A stretch of DNA of 64,000 bases from an uncultured Tenacibaculum sp. (lineage in GTDB: Bacteria; Bacteroidota; Bacteroidia; Flavobacteriales; Flavobacteriaceae), in contig NZ_CANMLT010000002.1 in the NCBI RefSeq assembly GCF_947498805.1, forward strand, positions 186,001 to 250,000. The letters run 5' to 3'. The notes below the pieces were generated by a model that had not been told where the DNA came from, ran no database searches, and saw only the letters and a program-made list of their open reading frames with translations. Both the position numbers and the translations under genes were made by a program. Below, piece by piece: positions 14,695 to 18,098 of this stretch (within the stretch, counting starts at the first letter, position 1; each line of letters begins with the position of its first letter).

Positions 14695-14719
14695 TATATC
14701 ATAAGATAAGTTATATAAA

Positions 14720-14845
14720 GGAAACTAATGGCTTAACGCATCTTGGTGTGTACTCTATAAAAGAGCTCAATTTACCATATGATTTCTAAATGCCTTTAAT
14801 AATCATTTTTAGTAAACCGTATTATACGATGCACCATTAGCTTCC
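14720..14845 (-). ncRNA. putative DRT3-associated structured RNA with ACACACC tract
   Basis: Immediately 3' of drt3b, on the same strand, the sequence folds into a closed multi-branch RNA. The closing helix is GGAAGCUAAUGG/CCAUUAGUUUCC (12 bp) plus UGCAUC/GAUGCG (6 bp) with a UUAAG bulge. Arm 1 is CGGUUUACU/GGUAAAUUG, AUGAUU/AAUCAU and UUAAA-GGCA-UUUAG. Arm 2 is CUCU-UUUAU-AGAG. Between arm 2 and the closing helix lies an unpaired ACACACCAA. The wobble pairs (G-U, U-G in the closing helix; three in arm 1) pair only if the RNA is read from the minus strand, which fixes its orientation. DRT type 3 is known to need an ncRNA. From memory, its template is an AC repeat copied into GT-repeat DNA. 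Confidence 0.75.
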
Positions 14846-14851
14846 AAATAA

Positions 14852-16822
14852 TCAACCAGAGTATGGCGGATTATATTCTTTTTTAGCTAAAACATATTCC
14901 AAATTTATATCATTTGTATTCCAATCAATAAACCAAGATTGATATGATAAGATATAATTTCTAATTCTACCTACTCGATTAGCTGTTGGGGTAACACCTA
15001 TTAATGATTTGTATACAATTTTAATTAATTCATTTTTTTTATCGGTTTTTATATGTGGACATGAGACTAAATCAAAAAAAAGATATACATATTCCGTTTT
15101 CGCCATGCATTCTTTTACCTTGGCAATCTTCTTTATTGAAGTATCTATAAGTTTATCTTTATATTCTTCGCATTCATTTGAATCTTCAATAAAATATATT
15201 AATATTATTATTTGGAAATAATCTAAATTTTCTAATTGATCTTCATTTAAAAGAATATCTTCTATAAACTTTGTTTTAACAATTGGATAAATTTTATTTA
15301 AATTTACTAAAGCTACCAGTAAATTCATTGATTCTAAATGAGTTTTAGAATCTCTATTCAAAATATTTAAGGTATCTCTTATACCATCAAACATTTTTTT
15401 TGATATTACCATTGAGTTTTCACCATCTATATTACTAGCTCTTAGAAATTGAGTAATTATTACGACAATTTGAGTTAAAATTACGGTTGTTCTGGTTCTA
15501 CTATCCATTGATATTAGGAAAAATAAAACGTCAAGTATAATCAAAATAGGGTTATTCAAATCTTTAATGAATGTAGAGTCTTGTTGAAGAATAAATTCAT
15601 TTGATAATAACTTAACTAACCGATTCCTTATTATTGAAAGTGTCATTCCAGTTACATCTTCATAGTCAACTTTATTTTGCTTGATTATACTTTTTAAGTC
15701 CCGAATTAATTTATTAGAAACATTGAATGGCTTAATAATTTTTTTAAGCATAATTTCATTATCAGTCTCTTCTATAAATGAACTCAAAAAATTATCAAGT
15801 CTCTTCTCTAATTGAATTCTAGCTATTGTTATTCCAGTAATAAATGGTATCTCAATTTCTTGTGTTTTAGCATCGTTAATAGATAATTTATAATATTCTA
15901 ACTCTTTTACGAATTCTTTTTTGACCTCATGAGCTAATTTAAAATCATTTGAGAAAACAAAATAATCATCTACATATCTTCTTATTGTATAATCTCTATC
16001 TAAATGTATTTTATGTTTTTCTTTTAAAGAATTAATTACATTTTGTTCTATTCTTTGTAAAATGATTTCCGCAAAAATTCTTGAAGTTTCTGGACCTATA
16101 ATAATTCCATTTGTTTCATTGTAATTCGACCATTGCATTAACTTATCAAATTTATTTTCAAAAGAACTTGTAGAAGTATTTTTTTTAGCAAACTCTTTTC
16201 CTTTTATTGCCCAGGAAATTGAATGAGAGTATATACTAGGAAAACATTTTGATATATCAAATCTTAATAATTTTTTGAATTTTTTTTCTAAGCGGTGAAA
16301 CTTATATGAGTCATAAAATTTATAAAGAAAATCATATTCCTTGTATGTAAAATATGAACTAGAATATGCAATTTCTGTTTCATGCGGAAGTCTTTCAACT
16401 TCTACCCCAGAATCTTTTAATTTTTTCTTTATAATTTGCGAGTTTTTAACAAAAAAGTGGCTAGCTACTTTAGAAGGATATCTAATCGACACCCTACTCT
16501 TAGAACATAAACTTAAAATAAGAGAATCATACTTATTATAAAATTCAATAAACTTCAATTGCACTTTTGGATGCATTATACTTAATGTTCTATAACTGTC
16601 TAGTTTTTTTATTATTTTGTAATTATATGGAAGTAAATTTCCTGTATTTTTTTTTGTTATTTTAAAAATCTCAGTAACTAAATTTGGTACATTTTCAGAT
16701 TGTTTTCTTCTTGAAAATCTATATAGCCCGATGTTTGAGAAAGGAATTGGAACTTCATAAGGCAAAACTTCGGTTAAGAGAATTCTACTTTTGTCAAATT
16801 TTTTAACTCTGACTTTAGCCAT
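14852..16822 (-). CDS. drt3b: defence-associated reverse transcriptase Drt3b (UG8-like)
   Basis: A 656-residue protein with a reverse-transcriptase core: motif A RFDISKCFPSIY (D189), motif B GIIIGPETSRIFAEIIL (about 239-255) and motif C RRYVDDYFVF (YVDD 283-286). A long helical C-terminal half (about 340-656) has no maturase, HNH or integrase domain. Size, the second-gene position and the helical extension match the larger RT of defence-associated RT type 3. Its start overlaps the drt3a stop by 8 bp. By the published classification DRT3 comprises two RTs and an ncRNA that protect against phage. I recall that this subunit makes the complementary repeat strand, which is not visible here. Not a group II intron RT or retron. 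Confidence 0.85.
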   Translation of the reverse strand: MAKVRVKKFDKSRILLTEVLPYEVPIPFSNIGLYRFSRRKQSENVPNLVTEIFKITKKNTGNLLPYNYKIIKKLDSYRTLSIMHPKVQLKFIEFYNKYDSLILSLCSKSRVSIRYPSKVASHFFVKNSQIIKKKLKDSGVEVERLPHETEIAYSSSYFTYKEYDFLYKFYDSYKFHRLEKKFKKLLRFDISKCFPSIYSHSISWAIKGKEFAKKNTSTSSFENKFDKLMQWSNYNETNGIIIGPETSRIFAEIILQRIEQNVINSLKEKHKIHLDRDYTIRRYVDDYFVFSNDFKLAHEVKKEFVKELEYYKLSINDAKTQEIEIPFITGITIARIQLEKRLDNFLSSFIEETDNEIMLKKIIKPFNVSNKLIRDLKSIIKQNKVDYEDVTGMTLSIIRNRLVKLLSNEFILQQDSTFIKDLNNPILIILDVLFFLISMDSRTRTTVILTQIVVIITQFLRASNIDGENSMVISKKMFDGIRDTLNILNRDSKTHLESMNLLVALVNLNKIYPIVKTKFIEDILLNEDQLENLDYFQIIILIYFIEDSNECEEYKDKLIDTSIKKIAKVKECMAKTEYVYLFFDLVSCPHIKTDKKNELIKIVYKSLIGVTPTANRVGRIRNYILSYQSWFIDWNTNDINLEYVLAKKEYNPPYSG

Positions 16823-18098
16823 TATACCAACATTTTTTAATGATTTTAACCCTTTCAGGTCTAAAATCAGAATTTAACTTTCTATTTTTCCAACCAGCTA
16901 AAAAATCATACTTTGACAATACTCCTTTTTCATTTTGAGTCAGTGAACTTGCAATTTTGTTACCAAAACTTTTATTTCGTGCATTTATAATTTTTCGTAA
17001 AAAAGAAGTTAAATTTTCTAAAACATCGTCATCATTAATAAATGGATAGTTATAATATAATCCAGCGTAAAGAACTGTTCCTTCCGAAGGGTTCTTTTTA
17101 ATTGGATAGTTCCCTGAGAGAAACTTAAGTCTATCTTCTAATAATGAAAAATCATTGTTCTTCAAATAGTCCAAGAAAGAATATACGATTCGGGTCTTAT
17201 ACTTTTTTACCTTTTTTTTTGCAATAGATACCGTTATGTTTTTATCTTTAAATTCATAACCTGTTTTTTTGCACAAATCATTAAAAACAAACTTATAACC
17301 TAAATATTCAAAACTTAAGTTTGAAATATTAGAATTATCGTAGTTGTTTATTTCGAATATTCTAGTTTTCTTTTTATTAAAAGTCAAAGGTTTTCTTAGT
17401 AACTCATTATCCTCAATTTTTTTTATTAAAGTTTTTGGGCTATCAATTGTAAAAAGTATAATATCATCAACGTACCTAGCGAAATAGTATACAGTGTTTA
17501 ATCTGTTAACCTTTCTATCAAAATCTCGTAAATAGAGTTCTGACAGTGTAGCACTTATACCTATTCCTCTAGGCAACCCAGTAAAAGAAGAAAATTCGTT
17601 TGAATCCAAAAAATCCTCTAATATTTTTATGGAACTGCTTGAGAGTAATGCATCTTCTTTCAGTTTATTGATTATCCATTTCCTATCAATACTTTCGTAA
17701 AATTTCTTTAAGTCTAGTTTAATTATTGACATGGGTATTGCTTCTTGCAGCAATACGATTATTTGATTAACTATTAGATTTCGGTCAGCTTGTTTAACCT
17801 TATAAAAACGTTTAACACTATCGTTAATTTTTCTCAAAGCAAAATCATCTTCAATTTTTTGTAAAGAAAATATCTTATCTTCTCCATTTAAAATTTCTTT
17901 AATTGATGTAACCTTAAAACCATCGGAACAAATCTTTTGAGATACTTCTGTCATTATTTCAAAAGTTTTATCTCTAGATTCTCCTATACCAACGTATCTC
18001 TTATAATCCTCATAAGTTATTAGTTTTAATAAATCGGATGCAGAAAATGACTGTGTTAACATATATAGATTAAATACTTCATCATAATTAAATGGCAT
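16815..18098 (-). CDS. drt3a: defence-associated reverse transcriptase Drt3a (UG3-like)
   Basis: A 427-residue compact reverse transcriptase. Motif A is IKLDLKKFYESID (D129), motif B is GLPRGIGISATLSELYLRDFD (about 174-194) and motif C is FARYVDDIILF (YVDD 209-212), followed by a thumb-like helical tail ending KIIKKCWYNG. It is the first gene of a two-RT operon, overlapping drt3b by 8 bp, which is the hallmark of DRT type 3. In that system the RNA-templated activity is attributed to this subunit; that attribution is from memory. A 315-bp gene-free leader precedes ATG 18098. The codon usage is very A/T-rich, in line with horizontally spread defence genes. Confidence 0.85.
   Translation of the reverse strand: MPFNYDEVFNLYMLTQSFSASDLLKLITYEDYKRYVGIGESRDKTFEIMTEVSQKICSDGFKVTSIKEILNGEDKIFSLQKIEDDFALRKINDSVKRFYKVKQADRNLIVNQIIVLLQEAIPMSIIKLDLKKFYESIDRKWIINKLKEDALLSSSSIKILEDFLDSNEFSSFTGLPRGIGISATLSELYLRDFDRKVNRLNTVYYFARYVDDIILFTIDSPKTLIKKIEDNELLRKPLTFNKKKTRIFEINNYDNSNISNLSFEYLGYKFVFNDLCKKTGYEFKDKNITVSIAKKKVKKYKTRIVYSFLDYLKNNDFSLLEDRLKFLSGNYPIKKNPSEGTVLYAGLYYNYPFINDDDVLENLTSFLRKIINARNKSFGNKIASSLTQNEKGVLSKYDFLAGWKNRKLNSDFRPERVKIIKKCWYNG

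Follow-up and report, generated by a model that had tools for sequence, protein, structure and literature searches.

The structured RNA encoded on the minus strand directly behind drt3b, in the 64,000-nt stretch of DNA analysed here (the window), is almost certainly the noncoding RNA of a chromosomal DRT3 antiphage system, in which an unpaired ACACACC tract would serve as the template of the reverse transcriptase Drt3a by the mechanism described for E. coli DRT3. The DRT3 RNA, its ACACAC template and the synthesis of poly(GT)/poly(AC) were published in 2026 (PMC13174585, and Deng et al. as summarized in the review PMC13314766), and the RNA of the window is therefore a well-supported member of a described family and not a new type, which makes the surprise modest. 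The work on an AC-repeat template for GT-repeat DNA, which the initial annotation had invoked, is thus real (PMC13174585). The word "guide" used there is not apt, as the RNA would act as a template and probably as a scaffold.

The two genes that precede the RNA encode true Drt3a and Drt3b proteins according to the curated models, the scores listed in Table 1 being above the respective cut-offs of 200 and 350 bits. The gene of Drt3a (UG3) lies immediately upstream of that of Drt3b (UG8) on the same strand, with an 8-bp overlap; its reading frame is open as far as 18098, and the conserved Met is the start in all four close relatives. The TGA stop codon of drt3b occupies 14854-14852 and is followed by 6 nt, base 7 being the first of the RNA. 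The residues E23, R78, D189, R248, Y283-V284-D285-D286 and Y654 of the Drt3b of the window align with E22, R71, D182, R241, YVDD and Y666 of the E. coli protein, and all the gate (A/C choice), catalytic and priming residues of the solved E. coli systems are kept. R248 is an arginine in 92 of the 92 aligned Drt3b proteins, and E23 is a glutamate in 90 and an aspartate in 2. In the Drt3b tree, the five-row clade of the window is fully supported and belongs to 49 rows that include EcoDRT3b (PDB 26cz, assigned to it by sequence), while the second solved Drt3b (9z6y) is placed in the opposite half. The mechanism proposed for the window is therefore inferred from two characterised relatives, one in each half of the tree. 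Adjoining the DRT3 genes, the segment 12952-14301 (minus strand) carries two genes, one for a 68-aa HTH protein of the Cro/C1 type and one for a 360-aa protein. The latter is devoid of any Pfam match but weakly matches the N-terminal region of Avs2 (E 0.0019), and the two genes may form a small pair, either of defence or of repressor and effector.

Table 1. Coordinates of the DRT3 genes, of the RNA and its parts in the window, and of the second-architecture RNAs at other loci
Feature	Position	Strand	Description
drt3a	16815..18062	minus	415 aa from conserved Met; RNA-templated reverse transcriptase; NF041747, 394 bits
drt3b	14852..16822	minus	656 aa; protein-templated, Tyr-primed reverse transcriptase; NF041748, 660 bits
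DRT3 ncRNA (very probable)	14720..14845	minus	126 nt; ends deduced from closing helix; fold z -6.6, covariation in 5 species
Closing helix P1, 5' strand GGAAGCUAAUGG	14834..14845	minus	12 pairs, every cell paired, 2 pairs with two-sided changes
Closing helix P1, 3' strand CCAUUAGUUUCC	14720..14731	minus	5-species comparison
Inner closing helix P2, 5' strand UGCAUC	14828..14833	minus	5-species comparison; register versus MFE alternative
Inner closing helix P2, 3' strand GAUGCG	14737..14742	minus	5-species comparison
Joining segment CGUAUAAUAC	14819..14828	minus	9/10 bases identical in 5 species
Hairpin arm 1	14768..14819	minus	7/12 counted pairs with two-sided changes
Hairpin arm 2	14752..14766	minus	adjoins template on its 5' side; putative template boundary
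Template tract ACACACC	14745..14751	minus	unpaired; invariant in 5 species
Second-architecture RNAs	L083:6011-6121, L047:6122-6237, L067:2818-2929, L069:6017-6129 and relatives		covarying kissing-loop pseudoknot

The minus strand of the element folds to a minimum free energy (MFE) of -41.5 kcal/mol, against -19.9 ± 3.3 for shuffled sequences (z -6.6), which bears out the structured minus-strand RNA that the initial annotation had placed from base 7 after the stop codon. The tract ACACACCAA is single-stranded in this fold, with a mean unpaired probability of 0.97 over its first seven bases, and the predicted layout of two hairpin arms with ACACACC left free between arm 2 and the helix is present in all its elements. 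The folding is strand-specific, since the plus strand folds far less well (-27.2, z -3.3) and the covariance model gives it 15.5 bits against 143 for the minus strand; the five wobble pairs on which this specificity had been based amount to five or six, depending on the register. The register also qualifies the 18-bp interrupted closing helix announced earlier: its 12-bp part is found in the MFE structure, but at the inner part the latter prefers the neighbouring pairing CGUAU/AUGCG over UGCAUC/GAUGCG. The comparison of the five species slightly favours UGCAUC/GAUGCG (100% of cells paired versus 96%) because a C-A in the relative L015 disrupts the alternative, and the inner register is to be regarded as uncertain. 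The joining segment CGUAUAAUAC is nearly invariant in the five species without covariation, and many of the other DRT3 RNAs also have a UAAU-like motif 5' of the hairpin on the template side; it is possibly a contact with the Drt3a protein. Searching Rfam with the element returned no match to any family, and a promoter scan was uninformative (27 sigma-70-like sites for 28 expected, sigma-70 being the wrong promoter type here).

The RNA is found in four out of four close relatives (two Winogradskyella, L015 and L016, Arenibacter L017 and Flagellimonas L018), whose Drt3b proteins are 71-80% identical to that of the window, and always at an equal distance behind drt3b. In the five-sequence alignment, 96.5% of the cells pair, versus 35-43% when the partners are slid, and two-sided compensatory changes are seen at 11 of 35 pairs, versus 1-4 with slid partners. 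The DNA similarity between the window and these relatives extends from the start of drt3a (18038-18067) to 14706-14717, that is 3-14 nt beyond the closing helix, and the flanks are devoid of similarity. The similarity being confined to drt3a, drt3b and the RNA, the latter moves with the cassette as its third component. Run on 298 genomes of the order, the covariance model built from this clade (R1) finds a single copy, that of the window's own genome, and nothing in the 297 others. Among all the DRT3 loci, it recognizes only the clade itself and, weakly but at exactly the right place, L019 (17.7 bits, E 0.29), and is consequently a model of the clade and not of the family. It does not detect the RNA of the E. 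coli homologue L095, and the homology with the E. coli RNA therefore rests on the position, the architecture and the tract, with the weak link provided by L019. In viral contigs no relative was found, and the phage records yielded remote reverse transcriptase matches only.

The survey of the family was carried out on 95 other drt3b flanks, the homologues being gathered by the Drt3b protein alone and never through the RNA. An (AC)3 tract is present within 350 nt behind drt3b at 89 of these 95 loci. As controls, it was seen in 144 of 2169 stretches of 350 nt taken elsewhere in these loci (6.6%) and in 5 of 96 flanks read on the opposite strand. Beyond the tract the RNA sequences of the 89 systems are otherwise unrelated. 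At the six remaining loci, a similar position is occupied by 4-5 nt (ACAC or CACAC), and the evidence that these provide is weak. At five loci (L021, L023, L033, L036 and L039), the tract behind drt3b is 4-5 nt long and is followed by G (ACACG); these are the shortest templates seen, and such loci are candidates for an altered repeat addition. The closing helix was examined at the 63 loci whose tract lies 60 nt or more from the stop codon by exchanging partners between loci, a test that replaced composition shuffling, whose z-scores were weak where the GC content was high. The segment following the stop codon pairs with that following its own tract at a mean of -25.4 kcal/mol, versus -16.0 for partners from other loci, and the own partner ranks in the top 5% at 45 of the 63 loci. 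The presence of a hairpin ending at most 4 nt from the tract was uninformative (87 of 93 loci versus 231 of 252 control positions). The E. coli homologue L095 follows the same plan, GUUAAAAGG...GACACACUAUUG...CCUUUUAAC, with ACACAC flanked by a stem-loop and the closing helix. Compensatory changes and a conserved AC tract, whose joint absence from the homologues had been named beforehand as refuting the proposal, are thus both present, and together with the true Drt3a and Drt3b they support the identification of the element as a DRT3 RNA and of ACACACC as its template.

These data also bear on another view, according to which the structure would be merely a transcription terminator or a 3' stabiliser of the drt3 operon and the AC tract incidental. 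The position immediately behind the drt3b stop codon and the run of T that follows the 3' strand of P1 in L016-L018, which is compatible with an RNA 3' end, would suit this view. However, a canonical terminator would not have 126 nt and two arms, none was detected at the element by the terminator scan, and the invariant, single-stranded tract is found again in systems whose RNA is otherwise unrelated, so that we hold this explanation to be very improbable. Slighter still is the chance that the element is the RNA of a DRT3 variant with another product, for instance a longer unit copied through ACACACC-AA: the invariant tract of the clade does read ACACACCAAG, with an extra C, but the EcoDRT3-type RNA L095 shares the ACACAC core and the residues by which Drt3b alternates C and A are intact, in such a way that a non-GT strand would not anneal. 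As for a retron-like msr-msd RNA giving a branched, non-repetitive DNA, which the long closing inverted repeat (retron RNAs are closed by an a1/a2 inverted repeat) and the adjoining reverse transcriptase might evoke, it is the least credible of all, given the lack of a retron or any other Rfam match, the identity of both reverse transcriptases as Drt3a/Drt3b equivalogs, which score far below the cut-offs of the retron models, and the family-wide AC tract. The retron and plain terminator readings were accordingly rejected on the basis of Rfam, the reverse transcriptase models, the tract conservation and the two-arm fold.

The model we propose for the locus of the window, in which transcription, binding, copying, DNA products and phage defence are extrapolated from the E. 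coli work, would be the following. The RNA would be produced as the 3' part of the drt3a-drt3b transcript, by processing from it, or from its own promoter, and would adopt a closed loop with two arms. Bound to Drt3a, this RNA would expose the 5'-ACACACC-3' lying between arm 2 and the closing helix. Drt3a would read the tract in the 3' to 5' direction to generate GTGTGT and would stop at arm 2, whose last base immediately precedes the tract and which might be the natural counterpart of stem-loop 4 of EcoDRT3 as a template boundary, by analogy with the stem-loop boundaries described in PMC13174585 and PMC12632851. A slip-back by AC microhomology, repeated many times over, would yield poly(dTdG). 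It speaks somewhat against this reading that the tract, invariant as it is in the clade, amounts only to (AC)3 plus C. Drt3b, primed on Tyr654, would synthesize poly(dCdA) without any nucleic-acid template by means of Glu23 and Arg248. The annealing of the two strands would result in a double-stranded DNA whose accumulation during infection would halt growth.

The 2026 review PMC13314766 leaves open whether all the DRT3 systems share one architecture and one output motif. In our survey, the template is AC nearly everywhere, and the fold of the RNA is of two kinds. The second kind is found in a 28-row Drt3b clade that does not include the window (SH-aLRT 98) and whose proteins mostly end in a C-terminus like SQEVY. 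In this clade, the tract usually lies only 28-56 nt after the stop codon, and a short helix closes the compact loop that contains it; two further hairpins are present 3' of the template loop, the last one being terminator-like. Pairing between the loop of this last hairpin and the single-stranded segment located 5' of the tract gives rise to a kissing-loop pseudoknot, the pairs seen being CCGUC/GACGG, CCGCUC/GAGCGG, CAGUCC/GGACUG, UCACC/GGUGA, UCAUGU/ACAUGA and CCGAC/GUCGG. When 17 systems are aligned on sequence only, the helix is 97% paired and 5 of its 6 pairs show two-sided changes; a hand-registered set, whose register was chosen by the analyst, agrees with this. Neither "pseudoknot" nor "kissing" appears in the main text of PMC13174585, and "pseudoknot" is likewise absent from the review PMC13314766. 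It is likely that the DRT3 RNAs comprise at least two architectures sharing only the AC template, the second having its template loop pinned by the pseudoknot to the 3' terminator-like hairpin. The template would be constant across DRT3 because it must match the strand written by the amino acids of Drt3b, whereas the templates of DRT10, which lack such a partner, drift.

The host genome imposes a restriction on the published activation model, in which EcoDRT3 is restrained by RecBCD and triggered by phage Gam (PMC13174585). RecC (PF04257) was not found in the window's genome, which is 99.97% complete, while the model does find E. coli in the control set. The published trigger therefore cannot apply unchanged and must work differently there, and the restraint by the host RecBCD is a feature of the EcoDRT3 model and does not define DRT3. 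AddB-like and AddA/RecB-like proteins are present (loci L108 and L109) and would be the obvious substitute, should the guard logic also operate in this host. Elsewhere in the same genome (contig C5, 139522-140367; locus L111, 1438-3611), a UG17 (DRT10) reverse transcriptase is followed by a SLATT_5 protein, and two telomerase-like DRT systems therefore coexist.

Our observations extend the DRT3 RNA to the Flavobacteriaceae with the support of covariation, and give exact coordinates to an element missed by Rfam and by gene callers. Their added value resides in this new-clade covariation, the family-wide survey, the second architecture and the absence of RecC.

In EcoDRT3, the ncRNA found downstream of drt3b carries a 5'-ACACAC-3' loop that templates the synthesis of poly(dTdG) by DRT3a (Wang et al. 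2026, PMC13174585). According to the same work, mutation of the loop abolishes both defence and poly(dTdG), DRT3a performs an RNA-dependent polymerisation of dGTP/dTTP, DRT3b performs an RNA-independent, Tyr666-primed synthesis of poly(dCdA) gated by E22 and R241 with the help of R71, and the products are truncated by read-through into stem-loop 4. The system of the window shares with it the order drt3a-drt3b-RNA, the single-stranded ACACAC between the last arm and the closing helix, and the gate, catalytic and priming residues of Drt3b. It differs from it by an RNA that is unrelated in primary sequence, shorter, with fewer arms and without a separate terminator hairpin, and by a host without RecC. 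The DRT3 of Deng et al. 2026 (PDB 9z6y/9z6z), described in the review PMC13314766 as a 6:6:6 complex, has, according to this review, the same two reverse transcriptases and an AC-template RNA, but its Drt3b is a distant relative belonging to the other half of the tree. The DRT10 (UG17) ncRNA and the telomerase RNA work alike, with a short template behind a stem-loop boundary and a slip-back repeat addition (PMC12632851). The second DRT3 architecture would resemble the telomerase RNAs, in which a pseudoknot or a stem forms the template boundary. DRT10 templates vary freely among systems (PMC12632851) while that of DRT3 is held to AC, and DRT10 associates its enzyme with a SLATT protein and no second reverse transcriptase (PMC12632851), whereas DRT3 has two; a UG17 enzyme with a SLATT partner was looked for at the DRT3 locus of the window and is not there. 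Finally, DRT9 belongs like DRT3 to the class 2 DRT systems and makes an RNA-templated repetitive product (PMC12632851), but from a poly-U template that gives rise to poly-dA.
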